Positions 6,257 through 27,620 of a stretch of 60,007 nucleotides of DNA are shown one piece after another. The position numbers were made by a program, and so were the translations under genes. Source of the DNA: an uncultured Alphaproteobacteria bacterium. GTDB taxonomy: Bacteria > Pseudomonadota > Alphaproteobacteria > Caulobacterales > Aquidulcibacteraceae. How positions within the stretch are numbered: position 1 is the first letter of the stretch; the number at the start of each line of letters is the position of its first letter. Below the pieces are notes generated by a model. The model was not told the DNA's origin. It made no database searches and was given only the letters and a program-made list of their open reading frames with translations. The DNA is taken from NCBI GenBank assembly GCA_902826035.1, contig CADEDG010000004.1, forward strand, positions 1-60,007, read 5' to 3'.

Positions 6257-8722
6257 ATGCTTGATCTTCGCCCTTACGCTTCGACCGGCGCCAAGCTCGC
6301 CGACTTCTTGCCGTGGGCCGCGCTGATTGCCCCCGGCGTGGTCTTGAACAAGGACGGCGCCTTTCAGCGAACGCTCGCATTCCGCGGCCCTGATCTAGAT
6401 TCCGCCGTGGCCGCCGAACTCATGGGTGCGAGCGGCCGATTGAACAACGCTTTCCGCCGCTTCGGTTCGGGCTGGTGCTTTCACGTCGAAGCGCGCCGAT
6501 CGCCGGCGCCTGGCTATCCCGATAGCGAGTGGCCAGACGCGGTGTCGTGGCTGATCGACGAAGAACGTCGCGCTGTATTCGAGACGGCCGGCGCGCGTTT
6601 CGAGAGCCGTTATTTCCTGACGCTCGCGTGGCTACCGCCAGCCGAACGGCAAGGAAAACTTGAAAGCCTCGTCTTTGAAGGCGGCGCAGAGACCGCGGCC
6701 ATCATCGACTATCGGCGTCATCTCGAACGCTTTCAGCAGGAATCCGACCAATTCATCGCGTTGCTTGAAACCGCCATGCCGGAGGCGCGCTGGCTTTCGG
6801 ACGAAGAGACGCTGACGTACCTCCATGATTGCGTCTCAGATCGCCCGCACCGCGTCGCCGTGCCTGAGACGCCATTTCATCTCGACCAGTTGCTGACGGA
6901 TGCCCCGCTCATCGGCGGGCTCGCGCCCACACTTGGCGCCAGGCATCTGAAAGTCATTTCGGTTCGAAGCTTCATCACCGAAACCGAGCCGGGGCTGCTT
7001 GACCAGCTCAACCGCCTGCCGATCTCGTATCGCTGGGTCACGCGTTTCCTGCCGCTCGACCGCGAAGAGGCGCGGCGCGAATTGGAAAAGATCCGCAAGC
7101 GCTGGTTCTCCAAGCGCAAGGGTTTGCTCACGCTATTGCGCGAGGCGCTCTTCCGCGAAGAGGCGGCCCTCCTCGACAATGACGCGGCGAACCAAACGGA
7201 AGACGCTGATGTCGCGCTGCAAGAACTCGGCGCAGATGCCGTCTCAGCAGGATACGCCACTCTAACGATCACGGTCGCTGAGGCCGACGAAGAGCAGGCG
7301 AATGAAGCTGTCCGGCAGATTCAGCAGGTCGCCGACGCATTGGGCTTCGTCACGCAAGTCGAAAGCGTCAATGCTGTCGAGGCCTGGCTGGGCAGCTTGC
7401 CAGGCCAAGCCTATGCCGACGTACGCCGGCCAATCCTCCTGTCGCCCAGCCTTGCGCATCTTCTTCCTACCAGCGCCGTGTGGGCGGGACCGGAGCACAA
7501 CATCCATCTCAACGCACCGCCGATCATGCTCACCGCGACCGATGGCGCGACGCCGTTCCGGCTCGACCTTCATGTCGGCGATGTCGGCCATACGATGATT
7601 GTAGGGCCAACGGGCGCCGGCAAATCGGTGCTGCTCGCGACACTCGCCGCGCAATGGCTCCGTTACGCTGATGCGCAGGTATTCCTCTTCGACAAGGACC
7701 GGTCCTCTCGCGCGACCATCCTCGGTCTGGGCGGCGATTTCTTCGATCTTGGCGAGGAGGACGCTTTAGGTCTCCAGCCGCTTGCGACGATCGATGACGC
7801 CGCCGAACGCAGCTGGGCGCTCGACTGGATCGCGAGCCTCATCGCCAGCGCCAATGTCGCAGTGACGCCTGAACTACGCGCCGAACTCTGGCGCGCTTTG
7901 GAAGTCCTCGCTCAGCGTCCGCTCGAAGACCGGACGTTGACCCTTTTTACGGCACTGGCCCAGGACGCGACCGTTCGCGCTGCGCTGGAGCCGTTCACGC
8001 GCGCGGGACCGTACGGGCGCTTGCTCGACCACGATCAGTCGACCTTGGGCTATGGCCGCGTCCAGGCGTTCGAGATGGGCGATCTGATGCGTCGTCCGCA
8101 TGCGGCGAGCGCGGTTCTCTCCGTGCTCTTCCATGCGCTGGAGCGCCGCTTCGACGGCAAGCCCACTTTGCTTGTTCTCGACGAAGCGTGGCTCTTCCTT
8201 AAGGACGCGGCGTTCGCTTCCCAAATTCAGGATTGGCTGAAGACGCTCCGCAAGAAGAACGTCGCTGTTATCTTCGCTAGCCAGGAACTCGCCGACGTTG
8301 AAGCGAGCCCGATCGCCTCGACCATCATCGAAGCGTGCCTCACCCGCATCTTTCTGCCCAACGACCGCGCCCGCGAGCCACGTTCGGCCGCGTTCTACGA
8401 ATCGTTAGGGCTCAATGCTCGCCAGATCGCGCTCATCGCCACGGCGACGCCGAAGCGCGACTACTATCTAGCCTCACGCGCAGGCTGCCGGTTGTTCGAG
8501 CTGGGACTCGGCCCCGCCGCGCTTGCCTTCGTTGCTGCCTCGCGCCCCGAAGACCACGCGTGGATGGATCGCGTGATCGCGGAGAGGGGCGCGCAAAACT
8601 TCGCGCTCGCCTGGCTTGAAGCACGCGGCCTACGCCACGCTGCCGATGCGGTGCGGCGCTTCAAGCAAAAGGCCGGATCGCCAGCTACGTCGGCCGAACA
8701 ATCCTTGATCGCCGCGGAATAG
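6257..8722 (+). CDS. trbE: Conjugal transfer ATPase TrbE (VirB4 family)
   Basis: This 821-residue protein is the large AAA-type ATPase that powers pilus assembly and substrate transfer. The N-terminus (MLDLRPYASTGAKLADFLPW) matches the TrbE start pattern. Walker A is GPTGAGKSVLLATLA at about residue 449 and Walker B is LLVLDEAWLFL at about residue 638, followed by a FASQELADVE segment typical of VirB4. A GTG at 6248 overlapping the trbD stop is an alternative start; the ATG at 6257 fits the family better. Confidence 0.95.
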   Translation: MLDLRPYASTGAKLADFLPWAALIAPGVVLNKDGAFQRTLAFRGPDLDSAVAAELMGASGRLNNAFRRFGSGWCFHVEARRSPAPGYPDSEWPDAVSWLIDEERRAVFETAGARFESRYFLTLAWLPPAERQGKLESLVFEGGAETAAIIDYRRHLERFQQESDQFIALLETAMPEARWLSDEETLTYLHDCVSDRPHRVAVPETPFHLDQLLTDAPLIGGLAPTLGARHLKVISVRSFITETEPGLLDQLNRLPISYRWVTRFLPLDREEARRELEKIRKRWFSKRKGLLTLLREALFREEAALLDNDAANQTEDADVALQELGADAVSAGYATLTITVAEADEEQANEAVRQIQQVADALGFVTQVESVNAVEAWLGSLPGQAYADVRRPILLSPSLAHLLPTSAVWAGPEHNIHLNAPPIMLTATDGATPFRLDLHVGDVGHTMIVGPTGAGKSVLLATLAAQWLRYADAQVFLFDKDRSSRATILGLGGDFFDLGEEDALGLQPLATIDDAAERSWALDWIASLIASANVAVTPELRAELWRALEVLAQRPLEDRTLTLFTALAQDATVRAALEPFTRAGPYGRLLDHDQSTLGYGRVQAFEMGDLMRRPHAASAVLSVLFHALERRFDGKPTLLVLDEAWLFLKDAAFASQIQDWLKTLRKKNVAVIFASQELADVEASPIASTIIEACLTRIFLPNDRAREPRSAAFYESLGLNARQIALIATATPKRDYYLASRAGCRLFELGLGPAALAFVAASRPEDHAWMDRVIAERGAQNFALAWLEARGLRHAADAVRRFKQKAGSPATSAEQSLIAAE

Positions 8723-17490: not shown

Positions 17491-18174
17491 ATGTGCAACC
17501 GATACGCCTCCGACATCCGCAAGGCCGGCAAGGAGCGCGACTACTATGGCTTCGACGAATGGTCCGAGACCCGCATCGATCCCGTGCTCGGCAATGCTGT
17601 CCTTGAGGTCTTTCCCAAGAGTTTCGCGCCAGTCCTCAAGCTCGGCGAAAGCGGCGAACTCGAATGGACCAAGATGCGCTGGGGTCTGCCGGGCCCACCA
17701 CGAACCGGCAACGCCGCCGTCACCAACATCCGCAACACCAAGAGCCCGCATTGGCGTCCGCTCCTGAAGCAACAATTCCGTTGTCTCGTCCCGTTCACCG
17801 CCTTCAGCGAATACGAAGACGCTTCACCGAAAGGGAAGAAACAAATCCGCTGGTTCGCACCACCGGGTCGCGGGATGCTCTTCTTCGCCGGGATCTGCGG
17901 TGAATGGTGGGGTGATTACGGGACCAAGAAAGAGCCCAATGAAGGCAACCACAAACTCTTCAGCTTCCTGACGACCGAAGCCAATGATCTGGTGCGCCCA
18001 GTGCACGCCAAGGCGATGCCGGTGATCTTGACCAACCAGTTCGCGTGCAAAGAATGGCTAAACGCATCGCACGAGCAAATTGAAGCGATTCAAAACCGTG
18101 TGCTTCCCACAGACGCTCTCGGGATTCTCGGAGATGAGGAAGCGGCGCAGTACACTGGCGGCTATCTCAAGTAG
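17491..18174 (+). CDS. SRAP domain protein (HMCES/YedK family)
   Basis: This 227-residue protein begins MCNRY, placing the catalytic Cys at position 2, as SRAP proteins require to crosslink abasic sites in single-stranded DNA. Other family landmarks are NIRNTKSPHWRPL (the conserved Asn-Arg region), CLVPFTAFSEYE (the catalytic Glu region) and VHAKAMPVIL (the active-site His, where HDRMP is usual). It would protect or process abasic sites, perhaps during single-stranded transfer or after base excision. It stands between the cyclase-like and PHP-SMC genes on the plus strand. Confidence 0.9.
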   Translation: MCNRYASDIRKAGKERDYYGFDEWSETRIDPVLGNAVLEVFPKSFAPVLKLGESGELEWTKMRWGLPGPPRTGNAAVTNIRNTKSPHWRPLLKQQFRCLVPFTAFSEYEDASPKGKKQIRWFAPPGRGMLFFAGICGEWWGDYGTKKEPNEGNHKLFSFLTTEANDLVRPVHAKAMPVILTNQFACKEWLNASHEQIEAIQNRVLPTDALGILGDEEAAQYTGGYLK

Positions 18175-18301: not shown

Positions 18302-21268
18302 ATGGCTGGCAAATCTCGGGGCGCGACTTGGAAACGGTGGGACCCCCATATCCACGCGCCTGGCACTTTGTTTTCGGACAAGTTCAAGGGGGCTAGTGCT
18401 TGGGAGGATTATCTCACGGCGATCGAAACTTCCGAGCCTCGGGTGCGTGCGCTTGGCGTCACCGACTACTATCGGCTCGATCTCTACGAAGCCGTGCGCG
18501 CGCACAAGCAGAAGGGCCGCTTGGCCGATGTCGAGCTCATCTTTGCCAATGTGGAGCTACGGCTCGACGTAGGCCTGCCAAAAGGCAACGCCATCAACAT
18601 CCATTTGCTGATCTCGCCGGAGGACGCTGATCACGTCGAGCGCGCGCACGAATTCCTGCAGGGGTTGAGCTTCGGAGCGCACCGATGTGACAAGGCGGGC
18701 TTGATCCGTTTGGGCAAGGAGCACCAACGTGGCCTCTCCGACGAGAAGGCTTATGAAGAAGGCGCCAAGCAATTCAAAGTGAGCTTTGGCGATCTTGAGC
18801 AGCGTTGGTCTGAAAGCTCATGGGCGCGCCAACACATCGTGATTGCTGTGCCGGGGAGCAACCAGGATGGCACTGCTGGGCTTCAGGGCGATGACGGGTT
18901 TGCGGCGCTGCGGGTGCGGATCGAACGTTTCGCGCAAGTGATCTTCGCGAGCCAGTCGGCGCAGCGCGCGTTTTGGCTGGGCCAGAGCGGCAAGGCTTCA
19001 CTCGACGAAATTCGCGAAAAGTGGAACGGTCCAAAGCCTTGCCTGCACGGGTCAGATGCGCATGAACAGGAGCGGGTCGTAGCGCCTGCGCTCGACCGTT
19101 TCTGCTGGCTGAAGGGCGACGTCATCTTCGACACGCTGCGCCAGGCTTGCATCGAGCCCGAGCTTCGCGCCGTTGTAGGGACGGCGCCGCCCTCGGGCGC
19201 ATTCGTCAATCAGACTATCGAGGAACTCTCGATGGGCGCCGCGCCATGGTTCAAATCGGGAGACCAACCGATCAACTCCGGCCTCGTCGCCGTCATTGGC
19301 GCACGTGGCTCGGGGAAAACCGCGCTGGCCGATCTGATTGCCGCGGGCGCACAAGCGCAGAGTAAAGACCCCGACAACCGTTCGTTCATCGCCCGGGCGC
19401 AAAAAAACAAGCTGCTCAAGGGCGCCAAAGTCACCCTGAAATGGGCCAACCAGGAAAAGAGTGAACAGCCGATCGATAACCTCGATACCGATGCTTTGTT
19501 CGAACCAAGCCGTGTGCAGTACCTCTCACAACACTTTGTCGATCAGCTCTGTTCGTCGGAGGGTGAGAATGACGCCCTCATCGCCGAGATCGAGCGTGTG
19601 GTGTATCAGGCCCATCCGAGCGGCGACCGGCTTGGGACGACAAATTTTGGTGAACTTCGCGACCATCGCATCGAGGACGCCCGCCGGAAGCGTGAACGCG
19701 CCGAGGACCTGATAGGTGATCTTTCTGAGCAGATTGAAGAGGAGCTTGCCAAGCGCGCGGGGCTAGCGGGTCTCACCAAGCAGGGCGATGACCGAAAGAC
19801 GCAGCACAAGCGGGAGATCGGTGAACGCGCCGCGGTTCTAAAGCGCGGCAAGGCAAGCGACGCCGCACGCCTCGGTGAAGTTCAGAGCGCCATCGATCGC
19901 GCGCAAGGGCGGGTCGAAGCTGCGGAGCGGCGTCAGCGCGCGTTGCGCTCAATCGGGGCCGAGGTACAGAATTCCAAACGTGTGCTCATCCCGGAAGCGC
20001 GCGAACGCGTGCGCCGCCATAGCGTCGCCGCCGGCCTAAACGCCGCAAAAATTAAAGAGTTCGACCTTGCTTTCGAAGGCGATGTCGACGCCATCCTTAA
20101 GGCGGCTGGCGATGCGGCTTCGGCGGCGTTGAAGGCCGTGACCGGCGAGGCCGTGGCGCCCATTGACGAAGCTCAGCCGGTTCCGTCTCCGTACTTTACG
20201 GCAAACGCCGACCTCGACCAGCAACCTCGCAGCATCTTGAACGCAGAAGCCGAGCGCTTGCGTCGTCTCGCGGGGATCGACCAAGATAACGCCAAGCAAC
20301 TGGAGCGCATCAACACACGCATCCAGCAGAGCGAGGCCGCAATCGCGCAATTGGAGCGCCGCGCCAAGGATGCCGAAGGCGCAATCGATCGGGCCAAGAC
20401 GCTGCGTGAGCGCCGGCGCCTCGCCTATACCGAGGTGTTTGAGGCCATTGCTGAAGAGGAGGCTGAGCTCACCGCGCTGTATGCGCCGCTGGACAAGATC
20501 TTGAAGGCCAAAAGCGGCACGTTGAGACGCCTGCGGTTGGCGGTCGAACGCCGCGTCGATGTGGCCCAGTGGGCCAAGGCCGGCGAGGATTTGATCGACC
20601 TCCGCAAAAGCGGCGATCTCAAGGGAAAGGATGCTGTGTCCCAGGCGGCGCGCACGGATTTGCTGGATATCTGGCGCACAGGCAAACCGGCCGATGTGGC
20701 CGCGGCGATGTCTGCCTTTCGAGAGAAATATCAAGAGACACTGGTGAACCAGGCCACGGCCGATCGCTCGGACCCCAGTGCGTGGCGAGATTGGATCAAG
20801 AACCTATCGACGTGGCTGTACCGCACCGATCACATCCGCGTCGTCTATGGGATCGAGTACGACGGTGTGCGGATTGAGCAGCTATCATCGGGCACGCGCG
20901 GCATTGTCTTGTTGTTGCTCTATCTGGCGCTCGATACCGACGACGATCGTCCCCTCATCATCGATCAGCCGGAAGAGAACCTCGATCCAAAGTCGATCTA
21001 CGAAGAACTGGTGCCGCTGTTCCGTGAGGCCAAAAATCGTCGGCAGATCATCATCGTCACCCACAATGCCAACCTCGTGGTCAACACTGACGCTGATCAG
21101 GTGATTGTCGCCGACTGCGGTCCTCACATGGCGGGCCGGCTGCCGGATATCAGCTATTTGAGCGGTGGCCTCGAACGGGCCGAAATACGAAAGCTCGCTT
21201 GTGCCATCTTGGAGGGCGGCGAGCGTGCCTTCACGGACCGAGCTAAGCGGCTGCGGTTCACCATGTGA
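18302..21268 (+). CDS. TrlF-type PHP and SMC-like ATPase
   Basis: This 988-residue protein has an N-terminal PHP-type metal hydrolase region (WDPHIHAPGTLF, then GVTDYYRLD) and an SMC/RecN-like ABC ATPase. Walker A is GARGSGKTALADL at about residue 333, a long coiled coil follows (about 460-800), and the signature/Walker B part RPLIIDQPEENLDPKS is at about residue 882, then IIIVTHNANLVVN. Proteins of this design occur in defence islands, and the PHP domain may cut nucleic acid or a nucleotide when the ATPase senses DNA. AAGGAG lies 11 bases before the ATG. Single-gene transcription seems likely. Confidence 0.8.
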   Translation: MAGKSRGATWKRWDPHIHAPGTLFSDKFKGASAWEDYLTAIETSEPRVRALGVTDYYRLDLYEAVRAHKQKGRLADVELIFANVELRLDVGLPKGNAINIHLLISPEDADHVERAHEFLQGLSFGAHRCDKAGLIRLGKEHQRGLSDEKAYEEGAKQFKVSFGDLEQRWSESSWARQHIVIAVPGSNQDGTAGLQGDDGFAALRVRIERFAQVIFASQSAQRAFWLGQSGKASLDEIREKWNGPKPCLHGSDAHEQERVVAPALDRFCWLKGDVIFDTLRQACIEPELRAVVGTAPPSGAFVNQTIEELSMGAAPWFKSGDQPINSGLVAVIGARGSGKTALADLIAAGAQAQSKDPDNRSFIARAQKNKLLKGAKVTLKWANQEKSEQPIDNLDTDALFEPSRVQYLSQHFVDQLCSSEGENDALIAEIERVVYQAHPSGDRLGTTNFGELRDHRIEDARRKRERAEDLIGDLSEQIEEELAKRAGLAGLTKQGDDRKTQHKREIGERAAVLKRGKASDAARLGEVQSAIDRAQGRVEAAERRQRALRSIGAEVQNSKRVLIPEARERVRRHSVAAGLNAAKIKEFDLAFEGDVDAILKAAGDAASAALKAVTGEAVAPIDEAQPVPSPYFTANADLDQQPRSILNAEAERLRRLAGIDQDNAKQLERINTRIQQSEAAIAQLERRAKDAEGAIDRAKTLRERRRLAYTEVFEAIAEEEAELTALYAPLDKILKAKSGTLRRLRLAVERRVDVAQWAKAGEDLIDLRKSGDLKGKDAVSQAARTDLLDIWRTGKPADVAAAMSAFREKYQETLVNQATADRSDPSAWRDWIKNLSTWLYRTDHIRVVYGIEYDGVRIEQLSSGTRGIVLLLLYLALDTDDDRPLIIDQPEENLDPKSIYEELVPLFREAKNRRQIIIVTHNANLVVNTDADQVIVADCGPHMAGRLPDISYLSGGLERAEIRKLACAILEGGERAFTDRAKRLRFTM

Positions 21269-21288: not shown

Positions 21289-21813
21289 TTACCAGCCGTG
21301 CTGCTGAAACAGCTGCTCCCACATGGCATGCACAGAATTGGCGATGTCGGTCATGCTGCGGTTAGCGCCTTCAAGTTCCACTTCGGTCCATCCGCCAAGC
21401 GGCCCAGCCCCAATCGGCGCGTCGTTGAAGCCGCCATAGGATCGCGCGACCGTGTTGGCGGCGTGTGTCGGCGTGTGCGGCGGAGTCGCTCTCGCTCTCT
21501 TGTGCGTAAGCTGCAAGTGCTTCGCCGAGTTGGCAATGCCGCGGATGAGAGCAAAATCTCCGTTGAGGTCGGAGAGCGCGTTGGCGAACCCCGCGCTGTC
21601 GCTGACGGGTATGACCTTAGCACCGTTCTTGTAGGTGAATGCGCCGTCAATCGCGGCCTTGTGGGCGTCATAGACCCAATCGCTTAGGTGGAAGAGCGAG
21701 ATGGCGCAGTGGAAGGCTCGCCGAATTTCGCCGCGGTGCTGGAGGAAGTCGAGCCGGTCGACATCGACGATGTCTCGCTTGAAGGCTTTGTAGTCCGCGA
21801 TCTGCGTCTTCAT
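21289..21813 (-). CDS. Hypothetical helical protein coupled to the exonuclease
   Basis: The ATG at 21813 gives 174 residues. The N-terminal half is helical (IRRAFHCAISLFHLSDWVYDAH) and is followed by DFALIRGIANSAKHLQL; an Arg, Asn and Lys-His cluster like this recalls HEPN-type helical RNases, but the spacing is not the standard RxxxxxxH, so I do not assign it. The start overlaps the exonuclease stop as ATGA, so the two are coupled. It may be a partner or regulator of that exonuclease. Confidence 0.55.
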   Translation of the reverse strand: MKTQIADYKAFKRDIVDVDRLDFLQHRGEIRRAFHCAISLFHLSDWVYDAHKAAIDGAFTYKNGAKVIPVSDSAGFANALSDLNGDFALIRGIANSAKHLQLTHKRARATPPHTPTHAANTVARSYGGFNDAPIGAGPLGGWTEVELEGANRSMTDIANSVHAMWEQLFQQHGW

Positions 21814-22709
21814 TCGCTCGCCCACATTCTTGACGAGTAGCGCTGGGTTGGCGGCACGTTGCTAACGGCGATACGGCCCTTATCTCGGTAGATTTCCTGG
21901 CGGAGCCAAGCTACCTCTGCGTCAGGGTCGCTTGTCATGATCCACCACGCCTTGGTACGCTTGGCTTCTCCATCGTCCCAGCGATACCCACGCCCCTTCA
22001 ACGCGGCGCGTTGTTCAAAAGCCGTGTCTTCGGCGCGCACAGCCCGCAACGGTGTCCGCGCGCAAGCAAGAAGGGCCGCAAGACCAAGCTGCTTCGATTG
22101 TGGCAGCTCGCGAGTCAGCAGGAAGAGCGTAGCTAACGCGTCCGACAGCGCTCGATGTCCATCGTGAAACCAGCCGTGCGCATGGAGCAGATAGTCGAGC
22201 TTGGCGGATCCGATACCTTCAGCCTTCCAATCTATGTCAACGAACGAGCACGCCCAGTGTTTTTCCTCGAAGATCGACCAATGCTTCTCGACCATTGGTC
22301 GATCGAAACCGGCGTTGTGCGCAATGACCAAATGCGCGGGCTCGATGATCGCACGCACACGCTCGGCATTGATCGCATGGCCTTTGACCATCTCGTTCGT
22401 GATTCCGTGGATATTGCTCGCCTCGGCCGGGATGGGACGAGTTGGTTCACGGAATTCCGAGATCGCATCTCGCTCATGAACTGCAACAATGCGCCCGCTC
22501 GCCCGTTCGTAGTCAAACGGCAACAGTGCAAGTTCGATGACTTCATCGCGATCCTGATCGAGGCCGGTCGTCTCCGTATCGACGACTACAGCGCGGCGAA
22601 TTTCACCGACGGCTGTTGGCAAGGTCCACGTGGCGACCGTCGGGACGCGGTGGAGTAGACGGTGATCCGGACTGGCTTCGATCAGACTTTCGGCTTCAGC
22701 CAGGACCAT
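21810..22709 (-). CDS. DEDDh 3'-5' exonuclease (DnaQ/epsilon-like)
   Basis: This 299-residue protein carries the DnaQ-type exonuclease signature: VVVDTETTGLD (Asp and Glu of Exo I), LVIAHNAGFDRP (Exo II) and HRALSDALAT (Exo III, DEDDh). IHGITNEMV is also characteristic. It would remove nucleotides from 3' ends of DNA or RNA. The C-terminal 100 residues have a tryptophan-rich part (RWDDGEAKRTKAWWIM) that may be a separate small domain. The ATG at 22709 is preferred over a TTG at 22721. It is divergent from the thymidylate-synthase-like gene and shares a 148-base intergenic region with it. Confidence 0.85.
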   Translation of the reverse strand: MVLAEAESLIEASPDHRLLHRVPTVATWTLPTAVGEIRRAVVVDTETTGLDQDRDEVIELALLPFDYERASGRIVAVHERDAISEFREPTRPIPAEASNIHGITNEMVKGHAINAERVRAIIEPAHLVIAHNAGFDRPMVEKHWSIFEEKHWACSFVDIDWKAEGIGSAKLDYLLHAHGWFHDGHRALSDALATLFLLTRELPQSKQLGLAALLACARTPLRAVRAEDTAFEQRAALKGRGYRWDDGEAKRTKAWWIMTSDPDAEVAWLRQEIYRDKGRIAVSNVPPTQRYSSRMWASE

Positions 22710-22857
22710 AGTGACTGCCAATCAGTAGGAGTTGACGTTGTTGCAGGCGCGATTCGATGCGCGGCGGTGACTAACTCCACGTATCACCGGTTGAGAGGTC
22801 AAGCGAATATCTCTACTGCGATTTGATGGTTTTTCGTTCGCTCACGCAGGATGCAGA

Positions 22858-23838
22858 ATGCGGATCACGGCGCGAACACTCGATGACTTGCTGAGAAAGC
22901 TCTATCCGAAGCTGCTAGCGAGCACGAACCGTCCGCAGCCCTCCAAAGGTGCTACCAGGGAATTGTTGGGTGTTTTGCTGGAGTTGACGAACCCGCTGGC
23001 GCGGTTGAGCCGCAGCGAGACGCGCGCAAAACCGTTCAGCTGCCTTGGCGAGTTCTTGTGGTACCTCTCGCGAGACTACCAACTCGATTTCATCCGTTAC
23101 TACCTTCCGAAATATCCGACTGACGATGCGGAGATCGTACCTGCAGGCTACGGTCCTCGGCTCTTTCATCATCGTGGAGTGGACCAAATAAAGGGTGTAA
23201 TTGAACTGCTGCGAGAGCGTCCGAGCAGCCGCCGTGCGGTGATCCAACTATTCGATGCAGAGGACCTGATCTCGGAACGCGAGGACGTGCCGTGTACATG
23301 TACGCTGCAGTTCGTCGTCCGCAGCAAACGGCTCCAGCTTGCGGTGAACATGAGGTCCAACGATGCCTATATCGGTCTTCCGCATGACGTATTCTGTTTC
23401 ACGATGCTTCAGGAGCTACTGGCTCGAACGCTCGGCGTCGGCGTAGGTCGATATTATCACTTTGCTATGAGCATGCATCTGTACGAAGGCGAGTCGATTG
23501 AACTCGCAAAGCAATATCTGTCCGAGGGAGTGCAGGCCAGCATCGCCATGCCGAAGATGCCATCGGGAAATCCTTGGCCGGCGCTGCGCAACCTGCAGGA
23601 CGCCGAAATGCGGCTGCGAGAGGGCCACGATCTGAAGGCCTCGCATCTCGAAACTGCACCGTACTGGGCCGATCTGGTGCGATTACTCGCGATCTTCGCG
23701 GCCACTGGCGAAGATGACAAGATCGACGACCTGAAGGAAGGGCTGGCGCATGACCAGTACCGAATCTTCGCGGACGCACGAAAAGGTCTCAAAGAGCGCA
23801 AGCCCGTTCTTCCGTTTCAACCCTCTTTTGATTTCTGA
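22858..23838 (+). CDS. Thymidylate synthase-family enzyme, dCMP-hydroxymethylase-like
   Basis: This 326-residue enzyme follows the ThyA fold: GEFLWYLS, then SRRAV (phosphate-binding Arg), VPCTCTLQF with catalytic Cys146, NMRSNDAYIGLPHDVF and MHLYEG. It would methylate or hydroxymethylate a pyrimidine deoxynucleotide with a folate donor. Position 177 is Asp, where thymidylate synthases have the Asn that selects dUMP; dCMP hydroxymethylases such as that of phage T4 have Asp here. The C-terminus lacks the usual ThyA ending and continues for about 100 unfamiliar residues. AGGA precedes the ATG. The next gene starts seven bases after the stop, so the two form an operon. Confidence 0.8.
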   Translation: MRITARTLDDLLRKLYPKLLASTNRPQPSKGATRELLGVLLELTNPLARLSRSETRAKPFSCLGEFLWYLSRDYQLDFIRYYLPKYPTDDAEIVPAGYGPRLFHHRGVDQIKGVIELLRERPSSRRAVIQLFDAEDLISEREDVPCTCTLQFVVRSKRLQLAVNMRSNDAYIGLPHDVFCFTMLQELLARTLGVGVGRYYHFAMSMHLYEGESIELAKQYLSEGVQASIAMPKMPSGNPWPALRNLQDAEMRLREGHDLKASHLETAPYWADLVRLLAIFAATGEDDKIDDLKEGLAHDQYRIFADARKGLKERKPVLPFQPSFDF

Positions 23839-23844
23839 GGACGC

Positions 23845-24759
23845 ATGTGGCCCTCCCGCCGAGCGATGGCGCAGCGCCTTTCGGAAGGCCTGCTTAAGTA
23901 TTCTGAACGTCGCGCACTATCCGGCGCTGCGTCCGAGGAGACGCGGAGTGTGTTAGCTTGGCAAATGGTCTCCAGCCTTCGGCGACTTGACTATACTCGT
24001 TTACGGATGGGGCGGAGCATCGATCCCGCTCGCGCCGATCCGAATGATTCAATGTTCGATCCGGAACTCGCCGCGGTCCTTCACGCCCGCGCTGGAAGGA
24101 TGGAGGAGGCGATGTGGCTCGTCTTCCTCGCAACGCATTTCGGCAATAGCGGAGTTACCGGTTGGCGGTTGCTCAAGGCGGTATATTCGGGCTTGGGAAA
24201 GGGCGCTTGGACGTGGGATCGAGTCAACGCTGATCCCGATGCGTTTGCGTCATGGCTAGAGTCCAACAGACACGAACTCACCGGGCGCTTCAGCAATCAC
24301 CGCAAGTACGAATCTCTGAAGCCAGGACCGAAGGGCACTGCGGCGGTGGTCCGCAGCTATCTAACTTGGGTTGGCAAGGATGGGACTCACGCGGCCTTGG
24401 TAAGCCGGTTGGTTAGAGAGGGCGGAAATGATCCTCACTCAATCTTCGATCGGTTCTACCGCGACATGATCGTACACCGGTTCGGCAGACTGGCGAAGTT
24501 CGACTACCTAACGCTCTTGGGGCGCCTTCATTTGGCGCCGATTGATCCGGGCTTGGCCTATATCCGCGAAGCCAGTGGGCCTCGAGCTGGATCACGTTTG
24601 TTATTCTTGGGCGACGAGGAAGATGGCTCGCACGATGCCGAACTCGATGCATGGGTAGTGGAACTCGGAGCTCAACTCGGGCTTGGCATGCAGGTGATGG
24701 AAGATTCAATCTGCAACTGGCAAAAAAGTCCTACGAGGTTTGTTCACTTTCGTGGCTAG
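23845..24759 (+). CDS. Alpha-glutamyl/putrescinyl-thymine pyrophosphorylase-like protein (clade 3 type)
   Basis: This 304-residue protein resembles a clade of predicted DNA base-hypermodification enzymes named for the thymine pyrophosphorylases. Recognisable blocks are MWLVFLATHFGNSG and WTWDRV (about 90-127), SNHRKYESLKPG (150-161), IFDRFYRDM (200-208) and HRFGRLAKFDYL (211-222), then ASGPRAGSRLLFLG. In this family such enzymes are thought to replace an activated hydroxymethyl pyrimidine with an amine or amino acid. The TS-family gene seven bases upstream could supply the hydroxymethyl base. The assignment is from recalled motifs, so moderate confidence. It ends convergent to and overlapping the ImmA-type gene by 29 bases. 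Confidence 0.6.
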   Translation: MWPSRRAMAQRLSEGLLKYSERRALSGAASEETRSVLAWQMVSSLRRLDYTRLRMGRSIDPARADPNDSMFDPELAAVLHARAGRMEEAMWLVFLATHFGNSGVTGWRLLKAVYSGLGKGAWTWDRVNADPDAFASWLESNRHELTGRFSNHRKYESLKPGPKGTAAVVRSYLTWVGKDGTHAALVSRLVREGGNDPHSIFDRFYRDMIVHRFGRLAKFDYLTLLGRLHLAPIDPGLAYIREASGPRAGSRLLFLGDEEDGSHDAELDAWVVELGAQLGLGMQVMEDSICNWQKSPTRFVHFRG

Positions 24760-25852
24760 CTGCCGTGACTTGGTCCCAGCTGAATCGTCGTTTGAGACCA
24801 TTCATCTGGTGTGGACCGATAACTTCGTAGTGCTGCATTTGTCCAACGACTATGCCCGGTGACACGCCGACGCGCTGAGCAAAGCGCACAATATCTTCGA
24901 CGCGGGCTCGAAGGGAAAGCAGTTCATCAAGGCGGTCACGAGGTATCAGAACGCCGCCGGCAAATGCATTGGCCTCCTCTTCCTCACGTGTGTGGGCTGC
25001 AATATCACCATCGACAAAAGTTTTGTCTTGTCCGTGGAGGACTAGATGGCCCGCTTCGTGAAAGAACGAGAACCAGAAGTGATCGTCGCTTAAGTAACGA
25101 AAACTCAGAATCATCATTGCGCGATCGCGGGAGGCAAAACGGCTGGCGCCGCTTGCCCGACAACCTGGCGGCGTACGTACAAAGAGTATCGCCACACCGC
25201 ATTGTGCGCAGAGATCTCGAAGCCTCGGTATGAACGAAGCTGGATTTTTGGTTCGGGTCAGGTGCCGTGCTTCCATAATTGCACGACGAAACGCGATTTG
25301 GTCCCAAGGCTCCGCGTAGGCGAACTTGGCCTGCAATTCGCCTTGCCTTAGCCAGGCGGCGAGGGCTCCAATTGTGGATTCAAATGTCTCCGAAGATCGG
25401 TACCGAAACTCGCTAGCGAACTGACCGTAACGGCTTTTCCATTCATCGGGGTTGGAGACGTCGAAGTACGACAGTGACGCCTGAAGCAAACGCCGTCTGT
25501 CGTTGGTATCTTCAATCCAGCCGGTATTTCGCATCTGTTTTATCGGCAGCAAGCGCAGCCATGTATCTGCATCTGTCGGATCAATTGCCTCAGACACAGT
25601 TTCCAGATCGCGTTCGTACTGAGCTTGGCGTGCTCTCCAAAATGCGCGCGAACCGCCGATGTGCGTCGAAAGTTTCGCGGCGATGTCGTCATCGAGCGCG
25701 GCCGAACCGTCAAGTAAGCCTTGGATCGCGCCGCGCGCTAAACCCGTTCGCTCAGCCAGAGCGGCGGGTGACAGACCGCGTTTCTTCATAAGCGTTAGTA
25801 CGGTGTCTCCTGGTCGGGAGAACCATTGTGGGGCAAACGAAGGGCCGGTCAT
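24731..25852 (-). CDS. XRE regulator with ImmA/IrrE metallopeptidase domain (antitoxin-like)
   Basis: This 373-residue protein joins an N-terminal helix-turn-helix (ALAERTGLARGAIQGLLDG) to a C-terminal zinc protease domain with FHEAGHLVLHG as the HExxH site and an EEEANAFAGGVLIPR helix. The design is that of HigA- or ImmA-type regulators, which repress their operon and may cleave a repressor or be cleaved. Its start overlaps the stop of the small RelE-like gene at 25849, so it is the second gene of that pair. Confidence 0.85.
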   Translation of the reverse strand: MTGPSFAPQWFSRPGDTVLTLMKKRGLSPAALAERTGLARGAIQGLLDGSAALDDDIAAKLSTHIGGSRAFWRARQAQYERDLETVSEAIDPTDADTWLRLLPIKQMRNTGWIEDTNDRRRLLQASLSYFDVSNPDEWKSRYGQFASEFRYRSSETFESTIGALAAWLRQGELQAKFAYAEPWDQIAFRRAIMEARHLTRTKNPASFIPRLRDLCAQCGVAILFVRTPPGCRASGASRFASRDRAMMILSFRYLSDDHFWFSFFHEAGHLVLHGQDKTFVDGDIAAHTREEEEANAFAGGVLIPRDRLDELLSLRARVEDIVRFAQRVGVSPGIVVGQMQHYEVIGPHQMNGLKRRFSWDQVTAASHESEQTS

Positions 25853-26175
25853 GTTCGCTGCTCCACGGAGACAATTTTCACCCGGCTAACGCGCGTCCAA
25901 TCCAGATCACCTGACGCGCCAAGCGGTGGGCTGAGATGTGCGCAGCGGAAGTTAATGCTCCAGCCGCTTGGGAGGACTACCGACATCGTTTCGGCACCTG
26001 GCGGCGAAAGGTCGTCGGCGAATAGTTCGAAGAACTCGGCCGCGGTCTCGGCAGCGCGCAGATCGGCAAGTCTCTGGCTGAGGGAAAGCGCCGCCTCGTA
26101 GCCCATGAGCTGCGTGGCCTTTTTGCGATTTTCGCAAATGGCTCGAAGCTCCGTGGTTTCGAACGTGAGTTCCAA
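25849..26175 (-). CDS. RelE/HigB-like toxin, probable
   Basis: This 108-residue protein begins MELTFETTELRAICENRKKATQLMG, the start pattern of small RelE/ParE-type killer proteins, and ends with a basic strand (WTRVSRVKIVSVEQRT). It is followed with a four-base overlap by an XRE-ImmA protein, the toxin-then-antitoxin order of HigBA systems. A translation-blocking mRNA interferase is the usual activity of the family, not shown here. The ATG at 26175 opens a frame with no rival start nearby. Confidence 0.65.
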   Translation of the reverse strand: MELTFETTELRAICENRKKATQLMGYEAALSLSQRLADLRAAETAAEFFELFADDLSPPGAETMSVVLPSGWSINFRCAHLSPPLGASGDLDWTRVSRVKIVSVEQRT

Positions 26176-26260: not shown

Positions 26261-26956
26261 TCAACCTGGTTCAGAGTTTGCCGCCGCGAGCTTGGCCTCC
26301 ATTTCGACGATCAACGCGTCTGCGTGGCGCGCCGCATCCCGTGGGCTAGCGAAGGAGCGAGGAACGTCAGGGTGGGCGCACGCGAAGAGGCTCTCGATTT
26401 CGAATGGGTAGATGCCGCGCAACGCCCGCATTAACACGTCTTTGCAGTGTTCGATGATGTTGGCAGCTGAATATCCAACGGTGCCAACCTGCGGTCGGAG
26501 CCCATGCGAAATCCGTGTTGATTTGGCGAGGCTCCAGTACGCCTTGCTGCAGGCTTCGAGCCGGTCGAACAACTCTCTGAGGCGCATTGAGAGGATGTCC
26601 GCCTCTGCAGTAACAGAAAGCGCGGCGAGCGATGTCAATTTTACGTTTGTCAGGTTTGCGGCTTCGAGCGCGCCGTTTTGAAAGCCCGATTCCGCCAACA
26701 GGATGCCGCGGTCAGCGCCGACGTCGGTGACGATTTCTCTCAGCGCGAGCACATGAAGTTTGGAGATGGCAGTCGTCCAGAGCTTGCATTCGACGATCCA
26801 TGTCACGTCAAACCCCGCGTGATGCGAAATCACCAGGACATCCACATCGTGCATGGTCCGGACGCCCTTGATTCGCGCGTCGGTCTGAGCGTCGAGACCC
26901 AAAGACCGGAAGAAGGCCGCGGCTTCGTCCTGGTACTGCTTCCAACCAATGGTCAT
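26261..26956 (-). CDS. Mrr-like restriction endonuclease domain protein
   Basis: This 231-residue protein starts YQDEAAAFFRSLGLDA and has the PD-(D/E)xK core of the Mrr nuclease family: DVDVLVISH, then VTWIVECKLW as the ExK motif. The helical second half (about 120-231) is not recognised. Mrr-type enzymes cut DNA, often modified or foreign DNA. No methyltransferase is adjacent, so it could act alone. It is separate from the flanking toxin-antitoxin genes by 33 and 85 bases. Confidence 0.7.
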   Translation of the reverse strand: MTIGWKQYQDEAAAFFRSLGLDAQTDARIKGVRTMHDVDVLVISHHAGFDVTWIVECKLWTTAISKLHVLALREIVTDVGADRGILLAESGFQNGALEAANLTNVKLTSLAALSVTAEADILSMRLRELFDRLEACSKAYWSLAKSTRISHGLRPQVGTVGYSAANIIEHCKDVLMRALRGIYPFEIESLFACAHPDVPRSFASPRDAARHADALIVEMEAKLAAANSEPG

Positions 26957-26989: not shown

Positions 26990-27319
26990 TTACGCCGCAA
27001 CGCGCGAGTGGACGGGCACCACGGCCAAGCGCACGCCAAGCGCCTTCAGGACGCCCTGCATTGTCTCAAGTGTTGGATTGCCGTCCGCGCTGAGCGCTCG
27101 ATAAAGCGTCTCTCGGTTAAGGCCTGTTTCTTCCGCGATTGCGGCCATGCCTTTAGATCGCGCGATGTCGCCGAGTGCAGCAGCGATCAGGCTTGGATTG
27201 TCATCCTCGAATGCGCCTTCAAACGCGGCCTCGAGAAAGAGCGCAACATCCTTCGGCGTCTCGATGTAGTCGGCCGCATCGAACGGACGAACCTTAATCT
27301 TCTTCGTCTTCGCTTTCAT
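26990..27319 (-). CDS. Addiction-module antidote protein (HTH)
   Basis: This 109-residue protein is the antitoxin of a type II pair. It has FDAADYIETPKDVALFLEAAFE, the usual start of the 'probable addiction module antidote' family, and an HTH (MAAIAEETGLNRETLYRALS). It should bind and neutralise the toxin encoded just upstream and repress the operon. The start overlaps the toxin stop by 26 bases. Confidence 0.85.
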   Translation of the reverse strand: MKAKTKKIKVRPFDAADYIETPKDVALFLEAAFEGAFEDDNPSLIAAALGDIARSKGMAAIAEETGLNRETLYRALSADGNPTLETMQGVLKALGVRLAVVPVHSRVAA

Positions 27320-27620
27320 CGATCGACGCCTTGTATGCGGCCCACAATTCTTGGGCCTGCTTGATGTCCTTATCCTGTGTGCTCTTGTCGCCGCCGGCGA
27401 GGATCAGGATAAGCTCCTCGCCACGGGTCCCGTAATAGACCCGGTAGCCTGGGCCCTCAGGAATACGCATCTCACTCAGACCGCTGCCAACCGGCTTCAC
27501 GTCGCCGGGATTGCCGGCGGCTAACCGCTTGATGCGGACGAGTATCTTCGCCCTGGCGCGGCCGTCTTTGAGGCCTTTTAACCATGTCACGAAGACCTCG
27601 GTCTCGAGGATCTGCGTCAT
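27294..27620 (-). CDS. RelE/ParE-family toxin (addiction module killer)
   Basis: This 108-residue protein matches the HigB/RelE-type killer family: FVTWLKGLKDGRARAKILVRI, MRIPEGPGYRVYYG and LILILAGGDKSTQDKDI. It would cleave mRNA at the ribosome unless held by the antidote encoded downstream. Stabilisation of the conjugative element is the likely role. The promoter region is only 27 bases before the divergent small HTH gene and holds a palindrome. Confidence 0.85.
   Translation of the reverse strand: MTQILETEVFVTWLKGLKDGRARAKILVRIKRLAAGNPGDVKPVGSGLSEMRIPEGPGYRVYYGTRGEELILILAGGDKSTQDKDIKQAQELWAAYKASIDESEDEED

Follow-up and report, generated by a model that had tools for sequence, protein, structure and literature searches.

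The window, the 60,007-nt stretch of DNA analysed here, carries a module of four genes in two convergent operons, which is probably a candidate anti-phage defence system. We consider it somewhat likely that the module is coupled to phage defence, and our confidence is evenly balanced on the fuller explanation that it is a mobile module, directed against phages or protecting its element, in which pyrimidine-modification enzymes are coupled to a PD-lambda-2-like toxin–antitoxin (TA) pair. The first operon, on the forward strand, encodes a thymidylate synthase (TS)-superfamily enzyme (positions 22858–23838, 326 aa), predicted from its Pfam match, its best PDB match (MilA) and its residues to be a pyrimidine-nucleotide 5-hydroxymethylase acting on dCMP and, after a 6-nt gap, an aGPT-Pplase3/ADDT-family protein (23845–24759, 304 aa), assigned from Pfam, an AlphaFold2 model, a fold search and a C-terminal motif. 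The second operon, on the reverse strand, encodes a small HigB-fold protein (25849–26175, 108 aa, TTG start), recognised by its AlphaFold2 fold and conserved position, followed by a HigA-like HTH domain fused to an M78/ImmA-IrrE metalloprotease (24731–25852, 373 aa; Pfam, HigA-type HTH and PADLOC). The small gene overlaps the HTH-M78 gene by 4 nt, and the latter converges on the aGPT-Pplase3 gene with a 29-nt overlap, giving the layout TS, aGPT-Pplase3 in one direction and small protein, HTH-M78 in the other. A sequence-only reading had described a two-gene operon; both of its open reading frames are present and form a co-directional pair, but the unit comprises four genes, and the convergent HTH-M78/HigB-like pair had been overlooked. 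Elsewhere in the host genome, a different contig carries the only other TS gene, which encodes a canonical ThyA, and no second aGPT-Pplase3 gene was found.

The co-occurrence expected of the two enzymes recurs on a broad scale. Across three bacterial phyla, gene-neighbourhood comparison finds the arrangement kept in essentially every recovered locus, from alpha- and gammaproteobacteria, Leptospira and Arthrobacter to proviral contigs. Carriers include plasmids of Agrobacterium, Roseomonas, Neorhizobium, Rhizobium, Pantoea, Arthrobacter and Leptospira interrogans (the Pantoea plasmid record also has genes for phage heads and lysis), proviral contigs, an ICE-like region and Escherichia coli chromosomes. 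Contigs of Bradyrhizobium and Hyphomicrobiaceae have the module as well, as do other genomes from the host's order and class. A single-sequence scan of viral contigs gave no module match; an alignment-based scan then gave 25 contig stretches that carry it. In the viral scans, TS relatives scoring at least 398 bits all lie within the module and those below 240 bits all lie outside it, apart from one 65-aa piece of a TS gene that belongs to the module. Altogether, 41 of 42 aGPT-Pplase3 loci are of the module type, a count that includes near-duplicates and a few module-type loci that lack genes where the contig ends; one divergent aGPT-Pplase3 relative (L162, 1651–2559) stands by itself, with no TS or M78 neighbours. 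The tail-to-tail distance between the 3′ ends of the aGPT-Pplase3 and M78 genes is −46 to +46 nt at 39 of the 40 loci measured, the sole exception being L009, whose aGPT-Pplase3 gene is split. In that Leptospira plasmid record the gene occupies two open reading frames (6980–7913); other records have intact copies. No small gene was recognised in L010 and those of L011 and L013 are doubtful, so the gene may be dispensable.

The module was present in 4 of 398 genomes of the host's phylum, 2 of 299 of its order and 1 of 385 of its class, each count including the host's own genome. The three large genes descended jointly. Distance matrices for 29 loci correlate at r = 0.86 for TS and aGPT-Pplase3, 0.88 for TS and M78, and 0.93 for aGPT-Pplase3 and M78 (permutation p = 0.001 each, n = 29), such that aGPT-Pplase3 is tracked no less closely by the convergent M78 gene than by the co-directional TS gene. 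The fixed layout and these congruent distances led us to reject a chance neighbourhood. In a midpoint-rooted tree with long branches, the TS enzymes of the module group together (support 99/98).

The TS-like enzyme belongs to the family named in the earlier reading, matching the Pfam Thymidylat_synt profile (3.1e-24; residues 62–223, profile positions 55–224 of 266). Its closest solved relative is MilA, a CMP 5-hydroxymethylase (5b6d, 158 bits), and the best TS scores 61 bits. Key residues are Glu65, Tyr98, Arg125, Asp143, Cys146, Ser167, Asp169 and Asp177. The catalytic Cys146 and Asp169, together with Asp177, had been noticed in this one enzyme; they are invariant in 30 module enzymes, so the pattern is not a product of chance. 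The ThyA-type Asn at position 177, found in the host ThyA and in gp51 of phage PaMx11, is replaced by Asp in all 30 enzymes. Position 167 is Ser in every one of them; at position 125, 27 have Arg and three have Lys, the MilA-like state. The window enzyme has Ser167 and Arg125, which correspond to MilA positions 176 and 133. Asp or Glu occupies position 143 in 29 of 30, where ThyA has no acid; this residue corresponds to T4 Asp145, and Asp177 to T4 position 179 and MilA position 186. In MilA, Asp186 sets the preference for cytosine, and Ser and Arg in place of Ala176 and Lys133 give a preference for deoxyribose (PMC5175136). In T4 gp42, Asp179 and the water-activating Asp145, the latter for hydroxylation, are both required, and the enzyme functions without the TS C-terminal tail (PMC6400193). 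Because Asp177 points to cytosine, Ser167 with Arg125 to deoxyribose and the acid at 143 to water activation, dCMP is quite likely to be the substrate, as the earlier reading had suspected, with 5-hydroxymethylation as the predicted reaction.

The module enzymes therefore resemble MilA and T4 gp42 in having Asp at the ThyA Asn177 position and an acidic residue shortly before the catalytic Cys. They differ from MilA in Ser167 and, mostly, Arg125, hence the prediction of dCMP rather than CMP, and from both enzymes in belonging to a four-gene module. Asp177 as such is not unique to the module: it is present in MilA, in T4 gp42 and in 58 of 58 phage relatives, a set partly selected by pattern. Could gene 1 instead be an ordinary auxiliary thymidylate synthase, accompanied by a hitch-hiking TA pair and making no modified base? 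Membership in the TS superfamily fits this idea, and TS genes are common on mobile elements. Nevertheless, it is highly improbable given the uniform Asp177, the near-uniform acid at 143, a host that already has ThyA and a four-gene layout fixed over three phyla. In addition, the Pfam search left the C-terminal part of the TS profile unmatched.

Gene 2 is firmly assigned from its sequence to the aGPT-Pplase3/ADDT group, consistent with the earlier family prediction, with Pfam scores of 345 bits for aGPT-Pplase3 (3.9e-103; cut-off 25 bits) and 233 bits for ADDT (5e-69; gathering cut-off 26.2). Sequence searches of solved structures with the protein and its profile found no relative, and NCBIfam and PHROGs hold no model for aGPT-Pplase3. 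The AlphaFold2 model (pLDDT 92.2) has a DNA-glycosylase-like helical fold. Its best VIA-align match is PUGT, the 5-PmdU glycinyltransferase of phage PaMx11 (Z 10.3, 218 residues, 4.2 Å), followed by the queuosine-phosphate enzyme DUF2419 (Z 9.0) and HhH DNA glycosylases (Z 8.9), although these Z scores differ little and a common fold does not show function. In a fold search of viral models an amino acid:DNA transferase came first (2.3e-5), and PUGT itself matches Pfam ADDT at 97 bits. A profile comparison aligned the C-terminal VETILCKW of PUGT with MEDSICNW, at E 0.0022 and low probability, and this alignment places an E..C.W.K motif in both gene 2 and PUGT. A modified pyrimidine is a plausible product of gene 2, a claim on which we lean neither way.

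These resemblances recall thymine hypermodification in PaMx11, which also joins a TS-superfamily enzyme to a transferase of the ADDT-family fold. Phages with base-hypermodification systems use them to resist restriction, and by analogy the writer pair might produce, in the DNA of the element or the host, a 5-methylene-cytosine decorated with an amine that protects from restriction, the protease and HigB-like protein serving only to maintain the element. We regard this reading as unlikely. In phage pathways, PUGT and the amino acid:DNA transferases do have hydroxymethylpyrimidine-derived bases as substrates, and PaMx11 has PUGT (gp46), a TS-like enzyme (gp51) and, in the neighbouring gene 50, a 5-hmdU DNA kinase. 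However, no dNMP kinase or 5-hmdU DNA kinase was seen in any module locus examined, which extends the earlier remark that no kinase lies next to the pair, and phage-style hypermodification is thus not established. A search of the host genome for the kinase family PF18723 was also without a match, but as the control genomes gave none either, this result does not prove absence. The module further departs from the phage pathway in having Asp177 rather than Asn, in its attached TA pair and in residing on bacterial mobile elements rather than in lytic phages; no relative turned up in annotated phages searched with the window and Pantoea proteins. Finally, the HTH-M78/HigB-like pair is as conserved as the two enzymes, which likely moves the biology from plain DNA hypermodification to TA-coupled defence.

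The missing DNA kinase would also suit a nucleotide antimetabolite, in which hydroxymethyl-dCMP is made and the glycosylase-fold protein then cleaves or alters the free nucleotide, upsetting phage pools or signalling, much as MilA is followed by MilB in the mildiomycin pathway. MilA is indeed the closest solved enzyme to gene 1, the second-best fold group for gene 2 (DUF2419) binds queuosine 5′-monophosphate, a free nucleotide, and MazG-like genes recur beside the module. Against this, gene 2 is a Pfam ADDT/aGPT member and comes closest in fold to a transferase that acts on DNA, MilB is from another family, and the MazG assignment of the recurring neighbours is weak. We judge the antimetabolite quite unlikely. 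The MazG-like genes are of two kinds: one of 120–190 aa lies just upstream of the small gene in nine loci (L007, L014, L015, L018, L019, L020, L023, L028 and L037), and a different one occurs in four gammaproteobacterial-type loci (L034, L036, L038 and L040). Their products could provide dCMP by acting on dCTP, or remove modified dCTP.

The convergent operon resembles PD-lambda-2, in which component A is HigB-like and component B is a HigA-M78 protein (Vassallo 2022, PMC9519451). In that system B alone is toxic, A neutralises it and defence proceeds by abortive infection (PMC9519451). The module has the same order, a HigB-like protein followed by a fusion of a HigA-type HTH to an M78-type peptidase. 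The HTH-M78 protein retains an intact HExxH motif, and its best PADLOC match is PD-Lambda-2_B (1.3e-21). The small protein (AlphaFold2, pLDDT 92.5) adopts a HigB fold, and the top rows of its fold search are nearly all HigB (Z 9.1 to 7.9). Unlike PD-lambda-2, its C terminus lacks the HigB DYH motif, and related small proteins beside M78 genes that have no TS or aGPT-Pplase3 neighbours mostly retain the YH tail. The third PD-lambda-2 component is related to a P4 antitoxin, and its profile, PD-Lambda-2_C, matched none of ten window proteins scanned with PADLOC; in its place, the module has the convergent TS-like/ADDT pair. A toxin–antitoxin role for the HTH-M78/HigB-like pair is likely. Because the PD-lambda-2 HTH-peptidase is toxic alone and the HigB-like protein neutralises it, we assign toxicity by inference to the protease of the module, and its inhibition to the degenerate HigB-like protein.

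The surroundings are those of a mobile element, as had been proposed. T4SS genes (a coupling protein and VirB11-like and VirB4-like ATPases) and a tyrosine integrase flank the module in the window, a context that fits an integrative conjugative element carrying a defence island. Upstream lie genes for an SRAP (SOS response associated peptidase) protein (17491–18174, forward strand), a 988-aa SMC/AAA_21-type ATPase (18302–21268, forward) and a DEDDh-type exonuclease (RNase_T; 21810–22721, reverse). The SMC-like ATPase, which is similar to PADLOC Ppl (2.6e-29), is likely a second defence gene near the module. Just past the module, an Mrr_cat restriction endonuclease (26261–26956, reverse) is followed by a separate TA pair, a dnstrm_HI1420 antidote with a Gp49/DUF891 toxin (26990–27620, reverse), which adjoins the integrase. 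Mrr-type genes also lie near the module in L012 and L032. In some loci a gene of ~270 aa stands between the TS and aGPT-Pplase3 genes (L009, 6193–6996; L021, 5136–5996; L022, 5180–5977; and L025/L026, 5171–5998 in L025). It has weak similarity to a DNA-deoxyinosine glycosylase family and belongs to no firm family. We did not retain a uracil-DNA glycosylase assignment, as the NCBIfam TIGR04274 match (E 8e-4) falls below the cut-off and solved structures gave none; the upstream gene of L010 and L011 proved to be of a different family from this insert.

How might the two operons work together? In the explanation we prefer, the TS-like enzyme would use methylene-tetrahydrofolate to convert dCMP to 5-hydroxymethyl-dCMP. 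The aGPT-Pplase3/ADDT protein would then act on the 5-hydroxymethylated pyrimidine, whether as a nucleotide or within DNA. This writer operon would be guarded by a PD-lambda-2-like TA pair, in which the degenerate HigB-like protein restrains the HTH-M78 protease, the likely toxic component. Infection, or loss of the writer product, would free the protease and stop the cell. More specifically, and rather doubtfully, a modified deoxycytidine nucleotide or base may be made continuously, such that the product or the intact writer keeps the protease toxin inactive until phage interference with dCMP metabolism or DNA provokes abortive infection. Several observations count against the TA-coupled module: without a kinase the activation of the hydroxymethyl group is unexplained, three enzymes have Lys125, the small gene is elusive in the three loci named above, and the L162 relative stands alone.

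DefensePredictor lists an aGPT-Pplase system among its predicted, unvalidated defence systems, with the aGPT-Pplase in a predicted operon, and the abbreviations of the figure concerned include HTH and UDG (PMC13092281, Fig. 6F). The systems validated in that work are others, including one with a thymidylate synthase domain (PMC13092281). Of the E. coli form of the present module, in which the TS-like protein is WP_000174035.1, at least 80% is present in 226 of 5,426 complete E. coli genomes (about 4%), nearly all copies having at least 99% identity and all being chromosomal. At both E. coli loci that were read, type I restriction–modification genes and IS remnants adjoin the module, and the small gene is unannotated. 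The TOE17 and STEC383 records hold interrupted copies, the damage being a TS gene truncated next to an integrase and an IS3 element lying within the module.

A 2013 study reportedly gave the aGPT-Pplases their name and may have noted their association with TS in bacteria. With intact copies in ~4% of complete E. coli genomes, the question of bacterial defence by 5-hydroxymethyl-dCMP or modified cytosine is open to direct laboratory testing. TS-like dCMP hydroxymethylase and ADDT chemistry have so far been known mainly from phages, and the fixed linkage of such enzymes to a PD-lambda-2-like protease/HigB pair on mobile elements of bacteria suggests that base-modification chemistry may take part in immunity or element maintenance.
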